Position numbers and translations under genes: made by a program. The notes beneath the pieces were generated by a model. That model had not been told where the DNA came from. It saw only the letters and a list, made by a program, of their open reading frames with translations, and made no database searches. Below are positions 109 to 46,089 of a stretch of 49,573 nt of DNA, one piece after another (position 1 is the stretch's first letter; every line of letters starts with the position of its first letter). The stretch comes from a virus. Location of the stretch: IMG/VR virus record IMGVR_UViG_3300029309_000062, positions 2,910 to 52,482 of that record. The stretch is one strand, 5' to 3'.

Positions 109-342
109 TTATCTTAACATAGTACCATAACCTTTACGTCTAGTTAGTTTTGCTATTTTAATAGCATCTTCACGACTAAGTATTTGTATACTATTACCAG
201 TTTTATGGTTGATAACTGGAGCGCAACCATAACGCTCTACATTGCTACAGCTGACACAGTTGTCATAACCGTACTTAATTCTTACTGGATGTAGCTCTTC
301 GCCACATTTACATGCTTTTGTTTGTATTGTTGTTGTATTCAT
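109..342 (-). CDS. Small zinc-ribbon-like protein (77 aa)
   Basis: The protein has cysteines at 11, 13, 29, 32 and 40 (CKC, then CVSC, then C), which looks like a small zinc-binding ribbon, followed by a basic C-terminus. Such peptides in phage early regions often bind nucleic acid or host protein, but no specific function can be assigned. An upstream in-frame TTG at 357 would add MDNIY. I prefer the ATG at 342 because the TTG lies inside the GGATAAT box of the repeated promoter motif. The ATG begins 6 bases after that box, so the transcript could be leaderless or nearly so. Confidence 0.7.
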   Translation of the reverse strand: MNTTTIQTKACKCGEELHPVRIKYGYDNCVSCSNVERYGCAPVINHKTGNSIQILSREDAIKIAKLTRRKGYGTMLR

Positions 343-348
343 GTATAT

Positions 349-380
349 ATTATCCAATAGTGTTCGTATTTAGTCTGTAA
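349..380 (-). promoter_or_regulatory. Repeated early promoter-like motif, copy 1
   Basis: On the minus strand this reads ACAGACTAAATACGA, 8 bases, GGATAAT. It is one of five copies with identical spacing. The -35-like half overlaps the stop codon of the upstream 47-residue gene, and the GGATAAT box ends 6 bases before the ATG of the zinc-ribbon gene. The promoter role is inferred from position and conservation. Confidence 0.65.
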
Positions 381-513
381 CAAATGTTAAACCTTTATAG
401 TTAAACCATGCGTTTCTTTCATATGGTACATCATTTAGAGTGTAACCTCTGTATAGTTTTCCATCTAATCTGATTAGTGACCTGTCACTTGGGTAAAATT
501 TAATTGTTTTCAT
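370..513 (-). CDS. Small early protein of unknown function (47 aa)
   Basis: The frame encodes MKTIKFYPSDRSLIRLDGK and ends in GLTFVTD. It is rich in aromatic and charged residues, without cysteines or a membrane segment. The ATG at 513 overlaps the stop of the upstream gene (stop at 500-502), which indicates translational coupling and supports this being a real gene despite its length. Its stop codon lies inside copy 1 of the early promoter-like motif. I do not recognise the family. Confidence 0.6.
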   Translation of the reverse strand: MKTIKFYPSDRSLIRLDGKLYRGYTLNDVPYERNAWFNYKGLTFVTD

Positions 514-703
514 TGTTTTCTTTATTAAAGTTTAATACTATTTTTCTTATTTGTTTACCTAATTCTTGATCGTTAGGTATTTTTCTTACATTTTCTTGTA
601 TCATTAAGAACATTACTGCTTTTAATGTTTTAGAATCTTCAAAATCACTACTAGTGATATTGTCTAAAGAATCCCACTCATGAGCTCTATTAATTACTCC
701 CAT
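500..703 (-). CDS. Small early protein of unknown function (67 aa)
   Basis: It starts MGVINRAHEWDSLDNITSSDFED and ends in an Asn/Glu-rich tail (NFNKENNENN). The middle, LKAVMFLMIQENVRKIPNDQELGKQIRKIVL, looks helical and amphipathic, consistent with a small helical adaptor or inhibitor. The ATG at 703 overlaps the last codons of the 690-860 gene by 14 bases, so it is part of the coupled early cluster. No known family was recognised. Confidence 0.65.
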   Translation of the reverse strand: MGVINRAHEWDSLDNITSSDFEDSKTLKAVMFLMIQENVRKIPNDQELGKQIRKIVLNFNKENNENN

Positions 704-860
704 TTTCTAAGTCTATTATTAGTTCACCATCATATATTTTTCTTGCTTGCATTAGTGAGTATGTCCACTTCTGCCACTCTGTTCCACATTTCTGTGTCCA
801 ACCGTAGATACCATCCTGTATATCATTAGCGATTGCTTCAATTGCTTGTTGTTCTGTCAT
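690..860 (-). CDS. Small early protein beginning MTEQ (56 aa)
   Basis: The protein starts MTEQQAIEAIANDIQDGIYG and has a Trp-rich middle (GWTQKCGTEWQKWTYSL). Its start resembles that of its upstream neighbour (MTEQDVIDKV), so the two may be diverged duplicates. The ATG at 860 overlaps the neighbour's TGA (857-859) as ATGA, and its own end overlaps the next ATG. Function unknown; the coupling is the main evidence that it is expressed. Confidence 0.65.
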   Translation of the reverse strand: MTEQQAIEAIANDIQDGIYGWTQKCGTEWQKWTYSLMQARKIYDGELIIDLENGSN

Positions 861-1027
861 TTTGTTAGTTCTTTTATAATTAATCTTGCTATTCTATCAG
901 CTTCTTTTACATATTTGTCGTCAGTTTCAGTGTGACCTAATTCTTCAAACATATAGTAATCTAGCTCATTATACAAAGTTATAACCATTCTGTCACACAC
1001 TTTGTCTATTACATCTTGCTCTGTCAT
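857..1027 (-). CDS. Small early protein beginning MTEQ (56 aa)
   Basis: The protein starts MTEQDVIDKVCDRMVITLYN and continues through a tyrosine-rich acidic stretch (ELDYYMFEELGHTETDDKY) to a helical end (ARLIIKELTK). It has the same length as the downstream MTEQ protein and a similar start. The start ATG shares a base with the stop of the upstream membrane peptide (TAATG). It is likely a small, fully helical early protein of unknown role. Confidence 0.65.
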   Translation of the reverse strand: MTEQDVIDKVCDRMVITLYNELDYYMFEELGHTETDDKYVKEADRIARLIIKELTK

Positions 1028-1191
1028 TACTTAAATATTGGTAATATTACTTGTTCGATTACATTTTTGATTGCTATGAACATAGTTGGTATCCATAAAC
1101 ATAAGAAAGCTGTTGTCATAACGGTAGCATATATTTTTAGCATGTGCCACTCAGTTAAATATGTAGCTATTTTTTTAATAGTTTTAGCCAT
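1027..1191 (-). CDS. Small single-span membrane peptide (54 aa)
   Basis: The sequence begins MAKTIKKIATYLTEWHMLKI and contains one hydrophobic segment at about residues 20-40 (ATVMTTAFLCLWIPTMFIAI), with a basic N-terminus that should stay in the cytoplasm. It sits inside the coupled early cluster: the ATG overlaps the end of the 83-residue gene and the stop overlaps the next ATG as TAATG. Early location argues against a holin. A superinfection-exclusion or membrane-modifying peptide is possible, but this is inference. Confidence 0.6.
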   Translation of the reverse strand: MAKTIKKIATYLTEWHMLKIYATVMTTAFLCLWIPTMFIAIKNVIEQVILPIFK

Positions 1192-1435
1192 TTTGTTTGT
1201 TTAATTTAGTTAATAATTCGTGTATTTCGTCATAATTGAAAGTAGAATACACTTTGTCTACTTCTTGTTGTACATATTTGTACGTAATTTCTTTAATTGG
1301 TTTACCGAAAAGAGATGTAATAAGACTACGTGGTGACCAACCATAAGGAGATTTATGTTTATTGTAGATTTGTAGCTTGGCACTACCATCACCGTAGTTA
1401 ATAATTGTTAAGTTATTTGTTTGTATATATTTCAT
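1184..1435 (-). CDS. Small early protein of unknown function (83 aa)
   Basis: The N-terminal part, NNLTIINYGDGSAKLQIYN, looks like a short beta-hairpin and resembles the 63-residue protein at 1572-1763 (NQTLTILDFGSGEVHQYHD), so the two may be paralogues. The rest is helical with a Lys/Asn-rich end. An upstream in-frame ATG at 1450 exists. I chose 1435 because it forms an ATGA overlap with the preceding gene and leaves the GGATAAT box 6 bases upstream, as for the 109-342 gene. Confidence 0.65.
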   Translation of the reverse strand: MKYIQTNNLTIINYGDGSAKLQIYNKHKSPYGWSPRSLITSLFGKPIKEITYKYVQQEVDKVYSTFNYDEIHELLTKLNKQNG

Positions 1436-1575
1436 ATTGTTATTATCCATCTCATTTCGTATTTAGTTTGTATTGTAAATGCTGTTTTTATTTTCTCAAT
1501 ATAATCTACTCTTGTTCCATCAGGTTGACTGTTGAGTCCACTCATTAAGCCAATAGTTATTATTAGTTTACTCAT
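1432..1575 (-). CDS. Short early peptide (47 aa)
   Basis: The frame starts MSKLIITIGLMSGLNSQPDG and ends AFTIQTKYEMRWIITI. Both ends make ATGA overlaps with neighbours (1572-1575 and 1432-1435), which is the main support. Its last 14 codons run through copy 2 of the early promoter-like motif, so this stretch is probably both coding and regulatory. No family recognised. Confidence 0.55.
   Translation of the reverse strand: MSKLIITIGLMSGLNSQPDGTRVDYIEKIKTAFTIQTKYEMRWIITI
1442..1472 (-). promoter_or_regulatory. Repeated early promoter-like motif, copy 2
   Basis: On the minus strand this reads ACAAACTAAATACGA, 8 bases, GGATAAT. It lies within the 3' coding part of the 47-residue gene and ends 6 bases before the chosen ATG (1435) of the 83-residue gene. 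It would be an internal promoter of the early cluster. Confidence 0.65.
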
Positions 1576-1763
1576 AGTTCATTAGTTAAATCGTAAATAG
1601 TTTTATCAGTATGGAACATATATTCTACTTCATTTAAGTTATATCCGAGCTGTACAGAGACAAACTCATCAAGTTCCATATGGTATTTATCGTAGTTTAT
1701 ATCATGGTATTGATGCACTTCACCACTACCAAAGTCTAATATAGTTAATGTTTGATTATTCAT
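1572..1763 (-). CDS. Small acidic early protein (63 aa)
   Basis: The protein reads MNNQTLTILDFGSGEVHQYH and is acidic and aromatic. The frame is open further upstream, but the ATG at 1763 overlaps the stop of the upstream gene by 8 bases, typical of this cluster, so it is the likely start. The TILDFGSGEV segment resembles TIINYGDGSAKLQ in the 83-residue protein nearby, suggesting a small paralogous family. Function unknown. Confidence 0.65.
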   Translation of the reverse strand: MNNQTLTILDFGSGEVHQYHDINYDKYHMELDEFVSVQLGYNLNEVEYMFHTDKTIYDLTNEL

Positions 1764-1989
1764 AGTAATTAGATTTAGGCTCAGCACAAGTATACCATGG
1801 TTCAATTCCAAGAATCCACTTGTCTACTTGACATATATAACCTGGTTGTTTCCAGTCTGGTTGTAACCACTTTGGATTATTTACCATTTCATCGTGACAT
1901 AATTGTTTATCGTCATCACTAAGTTGATAGTAGTGCATGTCAAACTTTGACATTGCTACTTTGTCGATTGTAGTATTTAAATTATTCAT
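1756..1989 (-). CDS. Small Trp-rich early protein (77 aa)
   Basis: The frame begins MNNLNTTIDKVAMSKFDMHY and has a distinctive tryptophan-rich second half (NPKWLQPDWKQPGYICQVDKW, then PWYTCAEPK) with three cysteines. The start ATG overlaps the TGA of the upstream gene (ATGA, 1986-1989). It is soluble by composition. Family not recognised; the dense aromatic pattern suggests a compact fold or a protein-binding surface. Confidence 0.65.
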   Translation of the reverse strand: MNNLNTTIDKVAMSKFDMHYYQLSDDDKQLCHDEMVNNPKWLQPDWKQPGYICQVDKWILGIEPWYTCAEPKSNYYE

Positions 1990-2186
1990 AGTATTTGATT
2001 TAGTATTTCGTAAACATCATCTTGTTGAGTTTTAGTTAGTGACATATAAAGGCCATTAGCTTCACCCGGATAGTTTAGTAAGTGATTTATAATTTGCTGA
2101 GTAAGTTCAGCTTGATTTACAGTCTTTTCCATTTCGTCAAAAGCTTTTGACCAAGACCAGTTTGAAGGATTATTTACATTATACAT
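1986..2186 (-). CDS. Small helical early protein (66 aa)
   Basis: The protein begins MYNVNNPSNWSWSKAFDEME and is predicted from sequence to be mainly helical (EKTVNQAELTQQIINHLLN, then KTQQDDVYEILNQIL). It is the first gene of the run going down to about 1435 and has copy 3 of the early promoter-like motif about 28 bases upstream, followed by an A/T-only leader. It overlaps the next gene by ATGA. Function unknown. Confidence 0.65.
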   Translation of the reverse strand: MYNVNNPSNWSWSKAFDEMEKTVNQAELTQQIINHLLNYPGEANGLYMSLTKTQQDDVYEILNQIL

Positions 2187-2213
2187 AGTTATATTTTTTA
2201 ATTAGTTTATTAT

Positions 2214-2245
2214 ATTATCCTACGACTTTCGTAGTTAGTTTGTAA
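2214..2245 (-). promoter_or_regulatory. Repeated early promoter-like motif, copy 3
   Basis: On the minus strand this reads ACAAACTAACTACGA, 8 bases, GGATAAT, about 28 bases ahead of the 66-residue gene. Its distal end touches the 3' end of the tRNA-like fragment, so processing of that element and transcription from here would be physically linked. Confidence 0.65.
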
Positions 2246-2300
2246 CCCGGAGAGGAATCGAACCTCTCGTCTAACCATTCAGGCTATGTGGTGAGTCATA
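2243..2300 (-). pseudogene. tRNA-like fragment lacking an anticodon arm
   Basis: On the minus strand the stretch contains a T-arm with a 5-base stem (AGAGG/CCTCT) closing the canonical loop TTCGATT, followed by an acceptor-like CCGGGTT and A. Immediately before it is TAGCCTGAATGGTTAGACG, which looks like a tRNA D-arm with the GG of the D-loop. There is no anticodon arm between them, and no matching 5' acceptor strand (AACCCGG) was found upstream. It could be a tRNA remnant, a tRNA-mimicking RNA or an attachment-type sequence. A complete decoding tRNA is not supported. Confidence 0.45.
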
Positions 2301-2369
2301 TGTTCGTATTGTTTTATACTCGCTAAATTATGACTATCAACTACGAGTCAAGTATATATTTTACTTTGT

Positions 2370-2606
2370 TTATTTAATTTCACTTAATTCTCTGCAGAAT
2401 TTTGGTACAGTATTTGAATTAGTGTAACTTTTGTACTCTTGAAAACACGGCATACTTTCAAACTTTTCTTGAAATGTTGAGTATATTTCGTCATGGTCAT
2501 AAGTAAATGTAATATCTTTTTTGTTAGTAAAAGTGATTACAGTGTTTGTACCGAGTAATGATTTTCTGATTACAAATCTTTTAGTAGTTAGTTTATTAGT
2601 TTTCAT
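2370..2606 (-). CDS. Small basic early protein (78 aa)
   Basis: The sequence starts MKTNKLTTKRFVIRKSLLGT and then alternates beta-like stretches (NTVITFTNKKDITFTYDHDE) with a helical, cysteine-containing end (FESMPCFQEYKSY, KFCRELSEIK). It is preceded by an A/T-only leader of about 28 bases and copy 4 of the early promoter-like motif, so it probably starts its own transcript. Function unknown. Confidence 0.65.
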   Translation of the reverse strand: MKTNKLTTKRFVIRKSLLGTNTVITFTNKKDITFTYDHDEIYSTFQEKFESMPCFQEYKSYTNSNTVPKFCRELSEIK

Positions 2607-2633
2607 ATTTATTTTATTTTATTTATTTATATT

Positions 2634-2667
2634 TAGTTATCCAGTTTAGTTCGTTTTTAGTTTGTAA
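2634..2667 (-). promoter_or_regulatory. Repeated early promoter-like motif, copy 4
   Basis: On the minus strand this reads ACAAACTAAAAACGA, 8 bases, GGATAAC: the most divergent of the five copies, with one change in each half. It stands about 28 bases ahead of the 78-residue gene and directly after the stop of the 33-residue membrane peptide. Confidence 0.55.
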
Positions 2668-2769
2668 TTAAATTCCGTTAAATGAAATATAATTTATAAT
2701 TCCGTGAGTTAAAATATTGTAAGTTATTAAAGTTATTAATGTTAGTAAAGATATTATTAAAGTTTTCAT
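2668..2769 (-). CDS. Possible 33-residue membrane peptide
   Basis: The frame reads MKTLIISLLTLITLITYNIL and continues HGIINYISFNGI, so most of it is hydrophobic and would form one membrane span. No overlap or clear promoter supports it, and hydrophobic frames arise easily in AT-rich DNA. It fills the gap between two early genes on the same strand and has an A-rich leader. Plausible but weak. Confidence 0.35.
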   Translation of the reverse strand: MKTLIISLLTLITLITYNILTHGIINYISFNGI

Positions 2770-2838
2770 AGAGTGTATATTTGTTTATTAGTTTAAAATT
2801 AGTTTATAGTGTTGCACACATTTTCTCATTAATTTACA

Positions 2839-3087
2839 TTATATTATTATATAGTTTAAATCTAATTCGTCAGTATGTATACTATATTCAATATTATTAT
2901 TAGTTAATAGTTGTAAAGTAGTATACCAGTTTGAAGTGTATTCAAATAATATGAATGTATTGTTTTTAAATTTAGACATGTCAATATTATTTTCTTCAAA
3001 GAAATTGTCTGAGTCAATTATGTAATGTATTTCAGAATTATCTTTTAGTATTTTATTTAGTTGATTATATTTTAAATTAGTAGTCAT
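2839..3087 (-). CDS. Small acidic early protein (82 aa)
   Basis: It begins MTTNLKYNQLNKILKDNSEI and is rich in Asn, Asp and Glu with aromatic beta-like segments (TFILFEYTSNWYTTLQLL) and an acidic end (HTDELDLNYIII). It is the first minus-strand gene next to the divergent intergenic region, with copy 5 of the early promoter-like motif about 23 bases upstream. Acidic early proteins sometimes mimic DNA or bind host enzymes, but nothing here demonstrates that. Confidence 0.65.
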   Translation of the reverse strand: MTTNLKYNQLNKILKDNSEIHYIIDSDNFFEENNIDMSKFKNNTFILFEYTSNWYTTLQLLTNNNIEYSIHTDELDLNYIII

Positions 3088-3109
3088 ATTATTTATTTTA
3101 TTTACATTT

Positions 3110-3143
3110 AATTATCCAAACATAGTCGTATTTAGTTTGTATG
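3110..3143 (-). promoter_or_regulatory. Repeated early promoter-like motif, copy 5
   Basis: On the minus strand this reads ACAAACTAAATACGA, 8 bases, GGATAAT. It lies in the divergent intergenic region ahead of the 82-residue gene, so it is probably the outermost start of the early cluster. Confidence 0.65.
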
Positions 3144-3318: not shown

Positions 3319-3365
3319 AGTGACATTAGCCTTATAATATATACTAATAACAGGCAAGTGTCACT
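3319..3365. repeat. Interrupted inverted repeat around a TATAAT-like box
   Basis: The arm agtgaca-tta-gcc (3319-3331) is mirrored by ggc-aag-tgtcact (3353-3365): seven plus three complementary bases with a three-base mismatch. The 21-base centre includes ttataat. It is either an operator over the promoter of the late block or a stem in its leader. Confidence 0.45.
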
Positions 3366-7938: not shown

Positions 7939-9492
7939 ATGGAAGATATAAAGCTAGTTAAAGACTTGGCTTTTGGTGAAACAGCTAAAAGCCAGGTATT
8001 AACTGGTGTTGAGAAACTAACTAATGCGGTAGGCTCAACACTAGGTGCAAGTGGTAAATGTGTTATTATAGAAGATAACCATGGTGATCCACAAATAACA
8101 AAAGATGGTGTTACTGTAGCAAACAGTATTACATTAAGAGATCCACTAGAAAATATAGGTGCAACATTAATAAAGCAAGCTGCTCAACGTACAGTTAAAG
8201 AAGCAGGTGATGGAACTACAACAGCAACTATATTAGCTCATGCAATATTAAAAGAAGCTAATGATCATAGCTTGTTAGATGATATTAGAGCAATGAAAGA
8301 AGGAATTAATCAAGGCGTTACAAAAGTTATAGAGTATATAACAAAAAACTCAAAGTCAGTAAGTGGTGATAAAATTACGCAAGTAGCTACTATATCTGCT
8401 AACAATGATAAAGAGTTAGGTAACACAATAGGCGAGGCTTTTAAAATGGTTGATGAAACAGGTGTAGTTGTAATGGAAATAAATGATCAACCTAAAACTA
8501 CTGTAGAACTTATAGACGGTGTACAGTACGATAAAGGCTTATTAAGTAATAACTTCATGACTGATAAGACTAGAGGTATTGTAGAGCTTAATAATCCTTT
8601 AGTATTAATTGTAGAGTCACACATAGAAAACATTAGAAAAATACAACCAGTATTAGAATATGTTATCAAGAATAACGAAAGTTTGTTAATTATTGCAGAT
8701 GTAGATAAGCAAGTTATGAATGCTTTAGCAATGAATAAAATAAAAGGTAATATAAAAATAAATATTATCAATGCACCTACATATGGTGTTAGTAAAGCAG
8801 AAACACTTAGTGATTTATGTTTGCTAACAGGTGCTAAATTAATTAACGAAGACTTAGGTGATGATATGAATATCATACAACCTGATTACTTAGGTAGATG
8901 TATTAAAGCTACTACAACAAAGCAAGAGACTATATTAAAGGTCGATGCTAGTAAAGATGTAGATGAAGTAATTAAATCTCTACAAAAAGATTTAAAGAAA
9001 GCTAAAAACCCAGGCAAAGTAATTCAAATAGAAAAAAGATTAGCTAGATTAAAAGCTAAAGTTGCTACGGTAAAAGTAGGCGCTAATTCTGATATAGAAT
9101 TAAAAGAAAAGAGAGATAGAGTTGAAGATGCTATATGCGCTACAAAAGCCGCGATCAAAGATGGTATTGTCCCAGGTGGTGGTATCGCTTTGTTAAATGC
9201 TTCTCAAAATTTAAAACCAACTTGCATTGGTGAAGAAGTATTATATTGCGCTATACGTAAACCTTACGAAACAATATTGCGTAATGCTGGTATACAAGAA
9301 TATGTAGATCCAGATGAAGACGGTAGAGGACTAGACGTGGTTACAGGAAATACGGTAGATATGGTTAAAACCGGTATTATAGATCCTTTATTAGTTACTA
9401 AAAGCGCGTTAATGAACGCGGCTTCAGTAGCAACCACTATATTATCAACCGATTGTGTAATCAATAATGTTAGAGATGAAAGCAGTAGGTAA
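7939..9492 (+). CDS. groEL: Chaperonin GroEL-like (517 aa)
   Basis: Conserved chaperonin features are in order: ITKDGVTVANSI (53-64), GDGTTTATILA (90-100), and near the end GIVPGGGIALLNAS. The protein folds client proteins in an ATP-driven ring with GroES. It is shorter than the usual 540-550 residues, lacks the C-terminal Gly/Met tail and has TLGASGK where bacterial GroEL has the GPKGR segment, so it is divergent. The GroES-like gene overlaps its end. It is probably a phage-specific ring for virion or fibre proteins; it could alternatively form mixed rings with the host protein. Confidence 0.9.
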   Translation: MEDIKLVKDLAFGETAKSQVLTGVEKLTNAVGSTLGASGKCVIIEDNHGDPQITKDGVTVANSITLRDPLENIGATLIKQAAQRTVKEAGDGTTTATILAHAILKEANDHSLLDDIRAMKEGINQGVTKVIEYITKNSKSVSGDKITQVATISANNDKELGNTIGEAFKMVDETGVVVMEINDQPKTTVELIDGVQYDKGLLSNNFMTDKTRGIVELNNPLVLIVESHIENIRKIQPVLEYVIKNNESLLIIADVDKQVMNALAMNKIKGNIKINIINAPTYGVSKAETLSDLCLLTGAKLINEDLGDDMNIIQPDYLGRCIKATTTKQETILKVDASKDVDEVIKSLQKDLKKAKNPGKVIQIEKRLARLKAKVATVKVGANSDIELKEKRDRVEDAICATKAAIKDGIVPGGGIALLNASQNLKPTCIGEEVLYCAIRKPYETILRNAGIQEYVDPDEDGRGLDVVTGNTVDMVKTGIIDPLLVTKSALMNAASVATTILSTDCVINNVRDESSR

Positions 9493-9736
9493 GTATATAG
9501 TAATTGATCCAGTTAAAGAAGATAACATCAAAACACAAGGTGGTCTAATACTGGGAGAACAACAGAGAGAAGATATAAGATACAGAAGAGCTAAGGTTGT
9601 AGAACCTGGCTCTGATGTAGATGTGTTAAAAACAGGTGATGAAATTTACTATGATAGATCGTCTGGCTTCAACATAGAACTAAATAATAAAGAATACAAA
9701 GTCATAAAAGAATTTGATGTTGTAGTAATTTTGTAA
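9476..9736 (+). CDS. groES: Co-chaperonin GroES-like (86 aa)
   Basis: The sequence MKAVGKYIVIDPVKEDNIKT continues QGGLILGEQ, which matches the GroES mobile loop with its hydrophobic tripeptide (LIL). Later GDEIYYDRSSG and the end IKEFDVVVIL fit the GroES beta barrel. It overlaps the end of GroEL by 17 bases. An in-frame ATG at 9467 would add MLE; 9476 aligns better with the family. The order GroEL then GroES is the reverse of the usual bacterial operon. Confidence 0.85.
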   Translation: MKAVGKYIVIDPVKEDNIKTQGGLILGEQQREDIRYRRAKVVEPGSDVDVLKTGDEIYYDRSSGFNIELNNKEYKVIKEFDVVVIL

Positions 9737-37536: not shown

Positions 37537-40500
37537 ATGTACGAAATAGAAGGCGTAAAGATAACTAGAGAACAGCTAGAAGCTGAAGCTAAAAGAAGAG
37601 GTATAACTTTTGAAGCTTTACTTGAGGCCAATAAAGGCAAGATAGTAGAACTAAGAGAAGATGGTACGCGAATACTAGAAGCTGAAATTGTTCCTTTAGT
37701 AGAAGAGGACAAACCTGATGTATCAAGGCCTTTAACTATTGAAGAACAAAATAGATTTGCTGACTCTATAATGAATCCAGCTAAGTATGATCCTGCAAAT
37801 CAAAACGTACAAACAGTAATGGGACAGCCTGTTATTTCAGGTGAGTTTAAAACTCAAGATATAGTTGGTCCTGATGACGTGTCTCTTAGTGCAGAAGAAA
37901 GAACCGCGTTGAGTGAACAGAACTATGATAGTAAAGTTGAGTCATATAATCAGAAGATTAAAAGTATAATGGAGATGCCAGGCGTTTCTCAAGAAGAAAA
38001 AATAAAGTTAGTTAATGAACAGCCAATGCCTGAGTTCAACATGCAGAATACTTATCCCAGCGTGCCTGGTTTTGTAGAAGATGAATCTGTACCTTCATTA
38101 GATGCTTTTATTCCTGAAAGCGATGAAGCTAAAGGTGATATTAATAGAAACAATGAATACTTAATGTCTAATAAAAGGAACGAAGTAAATGAAGTTATTG
38201 GGCCAGTAGGTAATTCAGAAGATTTTAGAAAAGAAGACGGAATAAAAACAAACGAGGAGTTAGATAAAAAAGCAACTGAAGCTTTTGTATCACTTAGACA
38301 AAACGATCCTATAATTAAAAGTAGATTAGAAGCTTATAAAAAAATGTATCTTCCAAATGTTGAAGCTTACATGAATGATCTTATAGAAAAAGATGTTTAC
38401 GACACTACAACTCAAACTGGTATTAATGCTTTTCAAGAAGCTCTTGGTATTTACTATGCTAACTTAATAGAGCAAGCAATGCTAAAAGATAATGCTGTTA
38501 CTTCTCAAAGCGAAAAAATAGCTGAACTAGTAGAACAAGAAATAGCAAACAAGCAAGTTGCTTTAGGTAGAAGTCAAAGTGATTTTTATAGCGCTATAGA
38601 TAAATTACAGTCTTATATAAAGCCTTTTGATATTGGAACACCAACAATGCTTAATCCAGCTAGGTTTTTATCAGGAACTTTAGATTTTGCTGAAAGTTTA
38701 GCAGTGAATACTGCAGATTTACTTTATGATGCTCCAAACACTATTGGTGCTCAAGTAGATGGCATGCAGATTAAAGCTAATAAAGAGATGCTTGAAAAGC
38801 TAGAAAAACTTAGAAGTGAAGGTAAATCAGATGATGATGAAGTTGTTATAAAAATACAAAATCCTCTTGGGCCTTCATATCCACAAATAGAAAAAAGAGG
38901 TACTATATTTAGTTTAGAACAAGACGCAAAAGTAAATATAGGTCAAGGTTCTGAATCTTTAGTAGAAAATATAGAACAAATAGAAGATTTTAAAGGCTTT
39001 TCTGAGTTGCAAAAAAAAGCTAAATTTACTGATGGAATAAGTTTTTCTGATTTATCAGTAGCTTTAGGACAGTCGTTACCTACAATGGCAGCAGTTTCTG
39101 CTGGAGTTGGAGCTTCTATGGTGCCAGGTCTTGGTCCAGTTGCTGTTGGTATGGTAGGTGCTATGGGACAAGTTGCTGCTACAGGTTATTTTTATGCTGA
39201 TGAATATATTAACGGTGTAAGGCAAGGTGTATTAGATAACCCAGATAAATACCCAGGTGGAGACACTAAAGAAAATATGCTTAAAGCTATTGAAAGCGGT
39301 GAGTTTGACGATGTAGCTCAAGACATAGCAATGGCTAGTACGATGAGTCTTTTAGAAAGAGTTGGTGCGGGTAGTCAAATAAAAGCAGCTCAAGCAATAT
39401 TTAAACAAGCTAAAATTACAGGTGGTTTAAACAAAATGTATTACGATGGTGTAAAACATTATTTAAACAAAGTAAAAAATAATGCTGTATTATTAAATAA
39501 GTCAGGTAGAAACGAGCTTGTAACTGAGTTTTTTCAAACAGGATTATCTCAAGTTAATAAAGGTATTAAAGGTGAAGGTGGTATAAACGATGCACTAAGA
39601 TTTGTAGAACCTAAAGAACTGTTAGAAGCATCTCTTGCTGGTTATTCTATGGGTGTTGCTCTTCCTTTCGCAAGTAATATTAGATCTAACACTTCAGATG
39701 CTAAAAATTTAGCTCTTAATTATGTAAGAGAATTTAATTTTAAAAAGCCATCAGCTAATATAGTTAGAACAGAAAAGTTTTTTGCAGAATTACAAAACAA
39801 AATAAAACAAAAATACTCTGATGCTGATGGTAATATTATAGCTACTAAAGAATATAACGACGAAATATCTGCTTTATCAGACATAAGAAATGCTGGTTTA
39901 AAAATGCCTATAAACTTTAGCAAAGTACAAAGACAAGAAGCTACAGATTTAATACTAGAAAGAAGCAAGTTACAAAGAGAAAACGAAGGTATTGACCCAC
40001 AGTTTCAAGCTAAGAACAAGGCAAGAATAAATCAAATAAATAAAAGACTAAACGATCTAGCTGAGGTTGAGATACAAACAAGAGGTGTTGAAGACGTTAC
40101 CGCTCAACTAGATGATGATATAGTAGATTCTTTTTTAACCTTTGATACTTCAAAAGAACTAGAAGAGTGGTTAGAAGGTAAAGGCGTTGAAAATGCAGAG
40201 CAAAAATCACAACAAAGAGGATTAAGTTTAAACATAGACGGAGTAGAATATTCTATTCAAAATAATGAAAAAAATTCTAAAAGTGGTTTCTTCTCAGGCA
40301 TGCATGAAACATTACATAAGTTTCTTAAAAACACATTAAAAACTAATCCTGATGTTGTTTTTCCAGTAGCTAAAATATTAAAGAAAAGATTAATAGAGTT
40401 AGAAAACGATCCTAGAGTTAATTCACAAGATTTAAAATTATTAAATAATACTTTACAAAAATATAAAGACGATGTAGAAGTTGATAGCGCTATAGAAGCA

Positions 40501-43500
40501 GAAGAAGTAATTACCTTGTTTAGTGAGTTTGCTAATAAAGGTATTATACCTTTTGATACTCAAAAATTTCAAGGTGTTAGAGATGCTACTAGAAGACTAC
40601 TTCAGAACTTACCGGGTGCTAAAAACTTAAAGTTTGAAAATGAACTAGATGTATTTAATTTTATAAAAGATTATAATAGATCTATACGTAAGGGAAGGTT
40701 TACTAGAGCTCAAGTAAGAGCTGCTAGAGAGGGTATAGACATAGGAGAAGATATACAACAAGTTGCTGACGCAGACGAAGCAGCAAGAAAACCTAGTAAT
40801 AGAGATTTAAAGCAAGCAAAAGACATTGCAATAGACGAAATAATAGAAAATAAAAACACTAATGATCCTAGTGTTCAGATGGAATTAGCTTATCAATTTT
40901 ATCCTGACGTTGTTAATTATATAAAATCTGGAAGATTTAAAATAGGTAATGAACGTGTTATTGACAATCCTAAAATAGCAGGCGTTATAGATGAAGATGG
41001 TTTTAGAAGAGAAGGAGCTGTTACTATAGAAGACTTAGCTATGGATATAGTTACATCTGATAGAGGAGTAAAAGGTATTGTAGCTGACTATTTTAAAAAA
41101 CCTGCTAGTGAAAGAGGTACTTTAGGACAGTTTGTTGGTGGTGGTAAATTTGATTTATATAGAGCTACTGAAATTGCTGCTAATACTTTAGGCATGCAGT
41201 CTCAAGAAATTAAACAGGAAACAACTGAAGATTTTAGTAAAGAAGAAAAGCCTTCATTAAGAAAGACTATGACAGATCTAGCTCAAGAGTTAAATTTTGA
41301 TGAACAGTCTACTGAAGAAGCTGCTATAGAGCAAGCAGAAGTAGAATCTTTAGCTAGTGATATGGCTGAAGCAGCTAGTAAAATATTAAAAGGTAAATTA
41401 AAAGCTCCAACATCAAAAGAGTTTATTCAAGATTTACAAAAACAGTCTAGTGATTTAGCTTTTAAAAGAGTTAAAGAATTAATGGGTAAGCCAAAGTCAG
41501 AGCAGTATACGAAGTTTATAGAAGACTATGCTTTAGCTATATTAAACAAAACGGCTCAGACTACTTTAAATAAAAGATTTAATAAGCTTACTCAGCCTGT
41601 AATAGATCCAGAGACTGGAAAGCAGGCTAGAACATTGACAGAAGAATCAAGAGCTGAAGGGTCGAGAATTAAAAATCCTTATGCTGGTAATCCCAAAAGA
41701 GAATTAATACCTGATCTTGATGTTCAAGATATGGTAGAATATTTTACACCTGAAAAAGGTAGAAGAGATGCTAAGCAAAATACATTAGCAGAAGTAGCGG
41801 CATTTGAGTTTGTTGTAGATGCTATGCCTGAAGCTCTTAAAACAAAATTAGATGATGGTACTACTATAGCTGAAAGAAGAGCAGATTTATTTGGTCAAGA
41901 CGTTGTTAATGCAGAAATAGCTTATATAGCTAGAGAGCTAGGTAGAGGAGTAGATTATAAAGCTGCTAAAAATATAGTGTTACCTGCTGACCTTGCAGAG
42001 GAGTTTGAAACTGTTGCACCTGAAATAGTTGAAGCTGCTCAAAAGTTTGGTATTGGTATTGATGAAGATTATACCGAAGGTTTTGCTCAAGCAATTGAAG
42101 GTGTTGATCCTAGAATTACAGAAGCATTAGTAGATGTAATGTTTACTGAAAGTCCTGAGCTAGCTGAAGGTGGTGAGTTTATAAAAGAAGTTGTTGGAGT
42201 TTTAGAAGAACTAAATCCAGATCTTGCAGCAGCTATAAAAAGAAGAGAGTTTGTAACTGCTAGTAAAAAACAAGGTGTTAGGGTTATAAACGAAAGGCCA
42301 GCAAAAAACCTAAATAAACTTGCACAAAGAATCACGAGCAGCTTATTAGATAATAGATTAGTTAAAGCTTTTAATCCTACATTAGAGTTTGTAGGTTATG
42401 CTAATAGATTATTAAATGCTGCAAAAGAAACTGGACCTAACAAAGTTAATGCACCATTTTATGCTGACAGATTGAGAGCACAAGGTTCTAACTATATAGA
42501 TAACTCTCAGTTAAAAGATATTATTCCTGCACATATAAAGCCAATGAATAAAAGCTTTGGTTTTATGGCTAAAACATTAAAAAATATTTTTTCTACTACT
42601 AGCTTAGAATCTAAATTAGCTATGGTTGAAAAAGAAAGAAATGTAATTGAGTTGGCTAACATAGCTAATAAAAAAGTTATAAGTAAATTAATTTTAGCTA
42701 TGCAAAAAGATCTTGCTTCTGGCAAAGGAATTACTAAGTCTCAAGTGTATCAGTTCTTTCAACTACAAACAGGTGTAGTAAAAGGTTTAAGAGCTTTAAC
42801 TAGTCTTGATTATCTTTACTTAATAGAAGGCAATCAATGGATTGAAGGTAAAGCAAGACCAAAAATACTTTCATTTTTAGAACTTACAGAAGAAGCACAG
42901 CAAGCTAAAATACAAGAGTTTATTGATGAGTTTCCTGAGTTTAAAGATAGATATGACATAAGATTAGAAGAAAAGTTAAACGCTGTTGATAGTAAAACTG
43001 GTGAGAAAAAATATACTTTTGAAGAAGCTAGAGCGAGAGCAGCGTTTGATCCTACTCTTTCTGCTTATAGAGATTTAAAAACTAAAGGAGAACATTTAGT
43101 ACCTAATTCAGTAACTATGATTGAATTAGCAGAAGGTGTGTTAAGAAATAACTTAGATCAAGCTAAGCTAGATCAGATACTAGCTGGTCACGGTCAGTTT
43201 TTTGGGCCTAATTATGTTATGGATCTTTTAGATACTAAAGGTATTGAAGGTGGTAAAAAAATAGCTTTAACTAGTAAAGAAGGTATATTTAGATTAAGTA
43301 AGTTTTTAAAAAATACACCTAGTGTAAGTAACAATATATATGCTTTAAACGGTAATAAAGCTTTTAATGAAATACTAAATACAGAAATATTTTTTAAAGC
43401 TTCTGAAGATCTTGACAACTCTATAAAAGAAGCTAAAGATTTTGATGTTGATATGCTTAAAGCTTTAGATGTAGTAGAGTTTAGTGAAGCGCCAAGTATG

Positions 43501-46089
43501 AATCAAGTTTTAGAAAAAGCTAAAATTATAGATGACGCTTTAAAAGTAGCTCGTAATCCTTTAGCTCCTATTAAAAAAATTAGAGTATTTGATTTTGACG
43601 ACACGCTAGCTACAAGCAATAACATAGTAATAGCTACTAGTCCTGATGGTACTACTATAGAACTAAACGCTGAAGAGTTTGCAGAGAAAGGACAAGACTT
43701 AAAAAACCAAGGTTATAAAATGGACTTTAGTGATTTTAATAGAGTAACAGATGGTGGTCGTGGTCCTTTATTTGAAGTAGCTGAAAAGATTAGAAATGCA
43801 AGAGGCAACGAAGATTTATTTGTGCTAACAGCACGAGCACCTGAAGCACAAGGAGCAATATACGATTTTTTAAAGTCACAAGGTTTAGAATTTAAAAGAC
43901 AGAATATAATCGGGTTAGGTAACTCTACGGGTGAAGCGAAAGCAAATTGGATAATTAGTAAAGCAGCTGAAGGATATAATGATTTTTACTTTGCAGATGA
44001 TGCAATGCAAAATGTTAACGCAGTGAGAAAAGCTTTAGATGTTATAGACGTTAAGTCTCAAGTACAACAAGCTAAGATAAAGTTTGCTAAAGATGTAGAT
44101 GTTGACTTTAATAAAATAATTCAACAGAAAACAGGTATTGCTGCAGAAAAAGAATTTAGTGATGCTAAAGCTCAAGTAAGAGGTGCTAATAAAGGTAATT
44201 ATAAGTTTTTTATACCTTATTCAGCTGAAGATTTTCAAGGTTTATTATACCCACTTCTTTCAAAAGGATCATTAGGTGATGCTCAAATGGCTTGGTTTAA
44301 AACACATTTAATGGATCCATACGCAAGAGCAATGGAAAACTTATCTCAAGATAGGTTAAATTTAATGGAAGATTTTAAAGAGTTAAAACGAAGATTAGAT
44401 GTACCTAAGAACTTGAGACAAGAAAATGAAAGTGGTTTTTCAAACGAGCAAGCAGTAAGAGTTTATTTATGGAACCAACAGGGAGTTGATATGCAAGACT
44501 TTGGACTGTCTAAAACTGATCAAAGAGATTTAGTTAAACAAGTAGAAACAGATCTTACTTTAAAAGAATTTGCAGATCAATTAGTTGAAATAAATAAAGC
44601 CTCATATCCTACGCCAGATAAATCTTGGCTAGCAGGTAGCATAACTTCTGATTTGTTAAGAGGTTTAAAAGAAGTAAAAAGACCTAAGTATTTAAAAGAG
44701 TGGCAAGACAATGTTGATTTAATATTTAGCAAGAAAAATTTAAATAAATTAGAAGCTGCTTATGGGCCTAAGTATAGAGAAGCAATGGAAAATATACTTA
44801 AACGTATGAAGTCTGGCAGTAATAGAGTTGGAGAGTCTAGTAGATTAGGAGGTAAAATACTTAATTATATAAATGGATCAAATGCTGCTATAATGTTTTT
44901 TAATACTAGATCTGCTATACTTCAAACTATATCTAGTATAAACTTTTTAAATTGGAACTTTAATAATCCATTGAAAGCTGGACAAGCTTTTGCTAATCAA
45001 CCTCAGTACTGGAAAGATTTTATGACGTTAATGAACTCTGATTTTTTAAAAGATAGACGTAACGGTTTAAGAATAAACATAACTGAATCTGAAATAGCTG
45101 ATGCTGCAAAAACATCTAAGAATAAAGCAAAAGCAGCTTTAGCTTATATATTAAGTAAAGGTTATTTACCAACACAGTATGCTGATAGCTTTGCTATTGC
45201 TTCTGGTGGTGCTACATTTTATCGTAATAGAATAAAAGATTTAGTTAAAAATCAAAGCATGTCTGAAGCTGATGCTGAGAAACAAGCACTGCGAGAGTTT
45301 AGAGAAATATCAGAAGAAAATCAACAGTCAAGTAGACCTGATAAAATATCACAACAACAGGCTAGTGATGCTGGTCGTTTAATACTTATGTTTGCTAATA
45401 CACCTATGCAGTATGCTCGTTTACAGAAAAGAGCTTTTCAAGATTTAGTTAATGGCAGAGGGGACTCAAAAACAAACGTTAGTAAACTTATATACTATGG
45501 CGTAGTACAAAACATAATATTTAACTCTTTACAACAAGCTATGTTTGCTATAGGTTTTGGTGATGAAGATGAAGAAAAAGATGAGAAAAGAGTTACAAGA
45601 ACACTAAACGGTATGCTTGACTCTTTATTAAGAGGTTTAGGTATAGCTGGTGCTACTACATCTATAGTTAAAAACTTTTTAGCTGATGTATATGAAAGAT
45701 CAGGAAGATCAAGACCAGAATACGTAGACTCTGTATATGAGTTACTAAGAATATCTCCACCTATAAGTAGTAAAATATCTAGAATAAGACAAGCTGCTTA
45801 CATGTTTGATAGTAAGAAAAGACGTGAAGAGATAATGGATATGGGTTTTAGTATTAAAAATCCTGCTTTCATGGCGTTTGCTAAAGTTGTTTCAGCTACT
45901 GCTAATATACCTCTTGATAGAGTTTTACAAAAGTTTGACAATATTGAAGGTGCTTTAAGTGAAGACGCTGAGACATGGCAAAGAATAGCAATGCTAGCAG
46001 GTTGGCCTAAATGGGATATACAACCTGATGGTAAGAGCGAAGATAAAAAGAAAAATAAAAAACGAAAAATTAGAAAACAAAGAAGATGA
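37537..46089 (+). CDS. Giant internal virion or cargo protein with HExxH and HAD-like motifs (2850 aa)
   Basis: At 8.55 kb this is a sixth of the window and far longer than T7 gp16. From the N-terminus: charged helical region; a Gly/Ala/Val-rich hydrophobic segment (508-560, PTMAAVSAGVGASMVPGLGP) that could enter membranes; HETLH at 923-927, a zinc-peptidase HExxH motif; long helical regions; a HAD-like phosphatase region with RVFDFDDT (nucleophile D2019, D2021), VLTARA (about 2096) and FADDAMQNV (D2154, D2155); then a helical C-terminus with a basic tail. It is probably ejected into the host with the DNA. Whether either enzyme motif is active cannot be judged. It overlaps the next gene by ATGA. 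Confidence 0.78.
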   Translation: MYEIEGVKITREQLEAEAKRRGITFEALLEANKGKIVELREDGTRILEAEIVPLVEEDKPDVSRPLTIEEQNRFADSIMNPAKYDPANQNVQTVMGQPVISGEFKTQDIVGPDDVSLSAEERTALSEQNYDSKVESYNQKIKSIMEMPGVSQEEKIKLVNEQPMPEFNMQNTYPSVPGFVEDESVPSLDAFIPESDEAKGDINRNNEYLMSNKRNEVNEVIGPVGNSEDFRKEDGIKTNEELDKKATEAFVSLRQNDPIIKSRLEAYKKMYLPNVEAYMNDLIEKDVYDTTTQTGINAFQEALGIYYANLIEQAMLKDNAVTSQSEKIAELVEQEIANKQVALGRSQSDFYSAIDKLQSYIKPFDIGTPTMLNPARFLSGTLDFAESLAVNTADLLYDAPNTIGAQVDGMQIKANKEMLEKLEKLRSEGKSDDDEVVIKIQNPLGPSYPQIEKRGTIFSLEQDAKVNIGQGSESLVENIEQIEDFKGFSELQKKAKFTDGISFSDLSVALGQSLPTMAAVSAGVGASMVPGLGPVAVGMVGAMGQVAATGYFYADEYINGVRQGVLDNPDKYPGGDTKENMLKAIESGEFDDVAQDIAMASTMSLLERVGAGSQIKAAQAIFKQAKITGGLNKMYYDGVKHYLNKVKNNAVLLNKSGRNELVTEFFQTGLSQVNKGIKGEGGINDALRFVEPKELLEASLAGYSMGVALPFASNIRSNTSDAKNLALNYVREFNFKKPSANIVRTEKFFAELQNKIKQKYSDADGNIIATKEYNDEISALSDIRNAGLKMPINFSKVQRQEATDLILERSKLQRENEGIDPQFQAKNKARINQINKRLNDLAEVEIQTRGVEDVTAQLDDDIVDSFLTFDTSKELEEWLEGKGVENAEQKSQQRGLSLNIDGVEYSIQNNEKNSKSGFFSGMHETLHKFLKNTLKTNPDVVFPVAKILKKRLIELENDPRVNSQDLKLLNNTLQKYKDDVEVDSAIEAEEVITLFSEFANKGIIPFDTQKFQGVRDATRRLLQNLPGAKNLKFENELDVFNFIKDYNRSIRKGRFTRAQVRAAREGIDIGEDIQQVADADEAARKPSNRDLKQAKDIAIDEIIENKNTNDPSVQMELAYQFYPDVVNYIKSGRFKIGNERVIDNPKIAGVIDEDGFRREGAVTIEDLAMDIVTSDRGVKGIVADYFKKPASERGTLGQFVGGGKFDLYRATEIAANTLGMQSQEIKQETTEDFSKEEKPSLRKTMTDLAQELNFDEQSTEEAAIEQAEVESLASDMAEAASKILKGKLKAPTSKEFIQDLQKQSSDLAFKRVKELMGKPKSEQYTKFIEDYALAILNKTAQTTLNKRFNKLTQPVIDPETGKQARTLTEESRAEGSRIKNPYAGNPKRELIPDLDVQDMVEYFTPEKGRRDAKQNTLAEVAAFEFVVDAMPEALKTKLDDGTTIAERRADLFGQDVVNAEIAYIARELGRGVDYKAAKNIVLPADLAEEFETVAPEIVEAAQKFGIGIDEDYTEGFAQAIEGVDPRITEALVDVMFTESPELAEGGEFIKEVVGVLEELNPDLAAAIKRREFVTASKKQGVRVINERPAKNLNKLAQRITSSLLDNRLVKAFNPTLEFVGYANRLLNAAKETGPNKVNAPFYADRLRAQGSNYIDNSQLKDIIPAHIKPMNKSFGFMAKTLKNIFSTTSLESKLAMVEKERNVIELANIANKKVISKLILAMQKDLASGKGITKSQVYQFFQLQTGVVKGLRALTSLDYLYLIEGNQWIEGKARPKILSFLELTEEAQQAKIQEFIDEFPEFKDRYDIRLEEKLNAVDSKTGEKKYTFEEARARAAFDPTLSAYRDLKTKGEHLVPNSVTMIELAEGVLRNNLDQAKLDQILAGHGQFFGPNYVMDLLDTKGIEGGKKIALTSKEGIFRLSKFLKNTPSVSNNIYALNGNKAFNEILNTEIFFKASEDLDNSIKEAKDFDVDMLKALDVVEFSEAPSMNQVLEKAKIIDDALKVARNPLAPIKKIRVFDFDDTLATSNNIVIATSPDGTTIELNAEEFAEKGQDLKNQGYKMDFSDFNRVTDGGRGPLFEVAEKIRNARGNEDLFVLTARAPEAQGAIYDFLKSQGLEFKRQNIIGLGNSTGEAKANWIISKAAEGYNDFYFADDAMQNVNAVRKALDVIDVKSQVQQAKIKFAKDVDVDFNKIIQQKTGIAAEKEFSDAKAQVRGANKGNYKFFIPYSAEDFQGLLYPLLSKGSLGDAQMAWFKTHLMDPYARAMENLSQDRLNLMEDFKELKRRLDVPKNLRQENESGFSNEQAVRVYLWNQQGVDMQDFGLSKTDQRDLVKQVETDLTLKEFADQLVEINKASYPTPDKSWLAGSITSDLLRGLKEVKRPKYLKEWQDNVDLIFSKKNLNKLEAAYGPKYREAMENILKRMKSGSNRVGESSRLGGKILNYINGSNAAIMFFNTRSAILQTISSINFLNWNFNNPLKAGQAFANQPQYWKDFMTLMNSDFLKDRRNGLRINITESEIADAAKTSKNKAKAALAYILSKGYLPTQYADSFAIASGGATFYRNRIKDLVKNQSMSEADAEKQALREFREISEENQQSSRPDKISQQQASDAGRLILMFANTPMQYARLQKRAFQDLVNGRGDSKTNVSKLIYYGVVQNIIFNSLQQAMFAIGFGDEDEEKDEKRVTRTLNGMLDSLLRGLGIAGATTSIVKNFLADVYERSGRSRPEYVDSVYELLRISPPISSKISRIRQAAYMFDSKKRREEIMDMGFSIKNPAFMAFAKVVSATANIPLDRVLQKFDNIEGALSEDAETWQRIAMLAGWPKWDIQPDGKSEDKKKNKKRKIRKQRR

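Follow-up and report, generated by a model that had tools for sequence, protein, structure and literature searches.

Analysis of a 49,573-nucleotide stretch of viral DNA (hereafter the window; bases 2910-52482 of the 52,482-base IMG/VR record IMGVR_UViG_3300029309_000062) identified a two-block sequence motif which, judged from sequence evidence, is a real conserved promoter, common to an extensive clade of uncultured marine viruses. This phage clade is related to Elemovirus and Pervagoviridae, and its hosts are probably members of the Bacteroidota. The motif is most likely a promoter of sigma70 architecture that serves the leftward gene module, is read by the host core RNA polymerase with a phage-encoded sigma factor and initiates transcription at a conserved purine.

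A first-pass annotation, made from the sequence alone, had proposed five copies of an early promoter-like motif with a fixed 8-base distance between its blocks. The window was scanned with the pattern ACAAACTAAATACGA-N8-GGATAAT, allowing up to three mismatches, and 100 dinucleotide shuffles served as the background. Exactly five matches were found, all on the minus strand and with 0-2 mismatches, while the shuffled sequences gave none. The proposed sites were thus recovered; only their end coordinates had been off, by an immaterial 1-3 bases. As had also been claimed, the 8-base spacers are unrelated (pairwise identity of 1-4 of 8 between copies), each copy precedes a gene, and two copies (at 349 and 1442) overlap upstream coding sequence. 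Counted from motif position 32, the ATG of the gene that is led lies at a distance of 0, 0, 21, 23 and 17 nt for the copies from 349 to 3111, respectively. The copies and the genes that they lead are as follows.

3111-3140, minus strand: promoter copy, 0 mismatches; predicted start at about 3104-3105, 17-nt leader to the gene at 2839-3087
2839-3087, minus strand: gene of unknown function (82 amino acids, aa), led by the copy at 3111-3140; no PHROG match
2636-2665, minus strand: promoter copy with GGATAAC in place of GGATAAT, 2 mismatches; predicted start at about 2629-2630, 23-nt leader to the gene at 2370-2606
2370-2606, minus strand: gene of unknown function (78 aa), led by the copy at 2636-2665; motif directly upstream in 81/112 homologues
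2214-2243, minus strand: promoter copy, 1 mismatch; predicted start at 2207, 21-nt leader to the gene at 1986-2186
1986-2186, minus strand: gene of unknown function (66 aa), led by the copy at 2214-2243
1442-1471, minus strand: promoter copy, 0 mismatches; predicted start at 1435, the A of the ATG (leaderless); overlaps the end of the upstream open reading frame (ORF)
1184-1435, minus strand: gene of unknown function, led by the copy at 1442-1471; begins at the predicted +1
349-378, minus strand: promoter copy, 1 mismatch; predicted start at 342, the A of the ATG (leaderless); overlaps the stop codon of the upstream ORF
109-342, minus strand: Cys-rich, zinc-ribbon-like gene, led by the copy at 349-378; begins at the predicted +1; motif upstream in 60/83 homologues

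The copies sit within a series of small, leftward-oriented genes without assigned function, which is divergent from the rightward module of structural genes (terminase, portal). Two additional copies, at record positions 485 and 1932, bring the number in the full record to seven, all on one strand.

An exact-pattern scan of IMG/VR returned at least 118 stretches, and 50 of their records were examined for copies. Each contained 1-12 copies; with one exception, the copies of a record share the same strand. A reversed control pattern had zero occurrences in the same 50 records. Aligned over the IMG/VR instances, the motif reads TTACAAACTAAATACGA-N7-T-GGATAATAT, with a spacer low in information. 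To avoid circularity, its geometry was examined by anchoring on the upstream 15-mer alone. GATAAT was found at one identical distance, exactly 9 nt later, in 244 of 246 unique instances, although the loci had been obtained either by scanning with the two-block pattern or by searching for sigma, and a share of these instances was thus found through the pattern. The base preceding GATAAT is G in 84% and A in 15% of the 15-mer-anchored instances. The upstream block varies by clade (ACAAACTAAATACGA, ACAAACAAAATA, TCGAAACTTAATACGA, CGGACTTAATA) with the spacing kept.

Absence of the motif in front of homologous genes in relatives had been named beforehand as an argument against its significance. 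Instead, among family members with enough upstream sequence, it was retained directly upstream in 81/112, 60/83, 41/66 and 40/71 members of four motif-led families of the window record. Control genes of the same module gave no such signal in the case of ERF (0/94) and sigma (0/102), and the motif seldom preceded thymidylate synthase (14/80).

The position of the transcription start could be predicted from the downstream genes, whose start was defined as the first ATG that begins an ORF of 35 or more codons (272 instances). This ATG falls exactly at motif position 32 in 86 instances, while every other position accounts for 12 at most. Where a leader is present (155 instances), A (0.50) and G (0.45) predominate at position 32, and G is scarce nearby. 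With position 32 taken as +1, GATAAT would occupy -12 to -7 and the upstream block -36 to -22, which reproduces the hexamer at -12 to -7, the element near -35 and the purine start of sigma70-type promoters. The predicted start thus corresponds to a bacterial RNA polymerase arrangement. About a third (~32%) of the transcripts would be leaderless, as against 5.5% of mRNAs in a flavobacterial host species, Flavobacterium psychrophilum (PMC9723704).

A candidate reader of the motif is encoded by the same viruses. The nearest relative in this respect, G015 (68 kb; where it aligns with the window genome, nucleotide identity is mostly 67-92%), has a gene for a 249-aa protein homologous to both sigma region 2 (Sigma70_r2, PF04542; 2.5e-5, 24.4 bits at a cut-off of 24) and region 4 (Sigma70_r4, PF04545; 0.0013, below the Pfam curated cut-off). 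A match to phrog_351, 'RNA polymerase sigma factor' (3.7e-20), extends over residues 9-238; in a set of 39 sequences the C-terminal helices are conserved. The protein also matches SigA/RpoD sequence chains, and its fold matches SigA chains with low whole-chain TM-scores, since the two domains are separate.

The sigma gene was found in all ten long genomes examined (split in one of them) and in 42 of the 50 motif-bearing records. Among the eight records that lack it, the ends of G035 fall in primase (start) and ligase (end), the two sides of the sigma segment, the motif cluster of G049 extends to the contig end, and the others have motif copies close to the contig end on the side of sigma. In the reciprocal test, for which sigma-bearing contigs were gathered without use of the motif, all 41 sigma loci with at least 8 kb of upstream sequence carried at least three two-block motif copies on the strand of sigma, and none (0/41) had such a set on the opposite strand. 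Six sigma loci that at first seemed to be motif-less proved to combine a divergent upstream block with GATAAT at the usual spacing, and a motif variant was also present upstream of a 52%-identical sigma gene from a metagenome-assembled genome (MAG) contig. The sigma gene is oriented in the direction of transcription from the motif, typically ~2.3-2.8 kb beyond the last early copy. Motif and sigma are both absent from four relatives, MW202828, Elemovirus, Panino and Cellulophaga phi38:1, the first two of which are related to the window phage by terminase (64% and 45%, respectively) and the third by portal (43%). When GTDB species genomes were searched for the sigma factor, only seven MAG contigs were obtained; these are apparently phage and belong to bins of mixed phyla, so they are weak as host information.

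A further indication comes from concerted change. Position -13, which was not used in copy selection, is uniformly G throughout the copies of many genomes but non-G in most copies of others, and its within-genome identity is high (z = 22); positions -6 to 10 were used in the selection and their z values are therefore inflated. Copies that change together within one genome point to one trans-acting reader.

On the basis of these patterns we infer sigma binding to the motif, the start site, the timing of expression (the genes served are early-like by position) and the presence of sigma in the window phage. The host RNA polymerase core with the phage-encoded sigma factor would read the motif in the leftward (early/replication) module, with sigma region 2 contacting GATAAT at -12 to -7 and region 4, perhaps helped, contacting the block at -36 to -22. 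Transcription would begin at the conserved purine 7 nt past GATAAT; for roughly one copy in three this purine would be the A of the ATG of the gene, giving a leaderless mRNA. The sigma gene lies downstream in the same direction, and these promoters could feed forward onto it. The first-pass annotation had left the choice between a phage-modified host polymerase and a phage RNA polymerase; the former is in line with the co-occurring phage sigma, while the latter disagrees with the absence of Rpb1 and Rpb2 homologues from 21 long relatives and with the predicted bacterial-type start.

Several observations weigh against reading by a phage sigma factor. The window record opens within ligase and stops within ribonucleotide reductase, so that the segment between them, the expected place of sigma, falls outside the record; a sigma gene of the window phage itself is presumed from relatives, G015 being the nearest. 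In the window, two of the five copies carry a T at motif position 32, which would move their start one base earlier. The upstream block, at ~15 bp, is longer than the usual -35 element. Mantel correlation of distances between the motif and sigma, helix-turn-helix (HTH) or control proteins revealed no specific signal, and the sigma-motif link consequently rests on co-occurrence, geometry and concerted change. Shared clade ancestry could be the source of the co-occurrence, and associations of single motif and sigma columns are confounded by phylogeny. One of these, between sigma residue 227 (E/Q, in a region-4 helix) and motif position 1 (p = 0.0012, uncorrected for phylogeny and multiple tests), is a lead only. 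Finally, host-type TTG-TAnnTTTG promoter pairs are not above chance in these genomes, and a search for one from which the first sigma could be made gave none beyond that level.

In T4 middle promoters a MotA box is combined with a -10 element, and host sigma70 recognizes TATAAT. A similar division of labour, in which a phage DNA-binding protein (e.g. the HTH protein encoded beside sigma) would bind the 15-bp block and host or phage sigma would read GATAAT, is an unlikely but serious alternative. The block at about -36 to -22 exceeds a normal -35 element in length and resembles an activator site, and GATAATA is invariant between clades while the block is variable, with the limit that GATAATA was itself the anchor of that search. 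A suitable protein of ~206 aa with a C-terminal HTH domain (PF08279, 7.7e-4, below the cut-off) is encoded beside sigma in long genomes. However, it shows neither co-variation with the motif nor a clear fold match, and a different dyad overlapping the start of its own gene may be its real target. Moreover, in contrast to T4, a phage sigma is present here, and the -10 element departs from the host consensus: GATAAT is unlike TAnnTTTG, the flavobacterial sigma-A element (PMC9723704), which makes reading by host sigma unlikely.

In G015 this HTH protein (L138:3354-3971, minus strand), conserved in relatives, is encoded directly upstream of sigma; it had no PHROG match and no significant match in the fold search. 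The dyad, 43-46 bp in length (GTGACAnnAGCC...GGCTnnTGTCA), covers the start codon of the sigma-adjacent HTH gene in 51 of 74 loci at a nearly fixed offset of about -37. It also occurs in the inter-module region of the window record and of several long relatives, at an expected frequency of 0.15 per 68 kb strand:

3320-3363, no strand assigned: dyad GTGACATTAGCC...GGCAAGTGTCA, a second conserved element between the leftward and rightward modules, outside the promoter motif

The dyad may serve the HTH protein as an operator, represent a second class of promoter or mark an origin. It also enters a variant of the phage-sigma reading that we consider rather improbable. As no host-type promoters are recognizable, the phage sigma may be required from the first minute of infection, in which case it would be either delivered with the virion or made from an unrecognized start signal such as the GTGACA...TGTCA dyad, and early transcription would be entirely sigma-directed and often leaderless.

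There is very little probability that the motif is used, with transcription starting at GG, by an RNA polymerase that the phage itself encodes, whether T7-like or of the virion multisubunit type. One record copy contains AAATACGA...CACTATAGG, which is superficially like a T7 promoter, and giant virion proteins are present, including one of 2,850 aa in the window. Nevertheless, none of 21 long genomes has a member of the Rpb1 or Rpb2 families, while 14 of 14 control genomes were positive; the T7-type family PF00940 was likewise absent from the 21 genomes, yet in this search the controls gave no signal either. A T7-like promoter, suggested by TACGAACACTATAGG in one copy, would start at GG right after the recognition block, but its first G is A in many genomes, which thus have AG, and a GG start leaves the purine/ATG constraint 12-13 nt downstream unexplained. 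A virion RNA polymerase within the 2,850-aa protein was rejected, as this protein matches no Pfam family and lacks a DxDGD motif. The protein is encoded at window positions 37537-46089, at the end of the structural module, and its residues 2010-2183 match phrog_415, polynucleotide kinase (8.1e-6).

Phages often employ host sigma factors for their early genes, but recognition of the motif by a host alternative sigma or host sigma-A is similarly hard to credit, since the motif is absent from the four related phages, follows the phage sigma gene and is unlike flavobacterial sigma-A, sigma-54 and ECF (extracytoplasmic function) motifs (PMC9723704). Flavobacterial sigma-A promoters have TAnnTTTG at -12 to -5 (PMC9723704); host machinery is probably shared and the -10-type element is similarly placed, but the sequence differs. 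The misfit to the Bacteroidetes sigma-A consensus (TTG near -33, TAnnTTTG at -7) had been correctly noted in the first-pass annotation.

Phage sigma factors with dedicated promoters are already known. The closest system found is that of phage 7-11 (phiEco32-like), in which the sigma factor SaPh711_gp47 directs bipartite late promoters, GTAAtg-(16)-aCTA (PMC8948821). Phage 7-11 is likewise a podovirus with opposed modules and a region 4-containing sigma that uses the host core at bipartite promoters (PMC8948821). Its promoters, however, are late and unrelated in sequence, whereas those described here are located in the module opposite the structural genes, have a longer upstream block and are predicted to give leaderless starts in about a third of cases. 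The gp36 promoters of phiEco32, tAATGTAtA (PMC8948821), are also reserved for phage genes and read by a phage sigma, with a start 6-8 nt past the element (PMC8948821), but they consist of a single element and gp36 lacks region 4, in contrast to the two blocks and the sigma regions 2 and 4 found here. Relative to phage 7-11, the present case differs in sequence, in the module that the promoters serve and in the leaderless starts predicted for them. The literature searched contained no description of the motif, and the North Sea flavophage paper in which Pervagoviridae was proposed mentions neither a promoter nor a sigma factor.

With these results a promoter sequence can be paired with a named candidate for its reader in an extensive group of uncultured marine phages, and transcription in this group (start sites, operons and sigma-led genes) becomes predictable from sequence. 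The promoter and sigma may form an orthogonal pair for use in Bacteroidota, where tools from other bacteria perform poorly. They also raise the testable question of leaderless translation in hosts without Shine-Dalgarno sites.

Directly before the copy at 2214 there is a stretch similar to a tRNA 3′ half (GAGGTTCGATTCCTCTC; window ~2236-2310, minus strand), although ARAGORN and Rfam scans of the region gave nothing; a comparable stretch precedes one motif copy in L125. The ends of G015 (L135-L138; bases 1-2729 and 64604-67321) contain similar, non-identical copies of one gene set, from ligase to the LKPHIKAK gene, which suggests a strain-mixed assembly or a diverged duplication. The window also contains adjacent GroEL- and GroES-like genes (7939-9492 and 9467-9736, respectively), and such genes are present in the named relatives as well.

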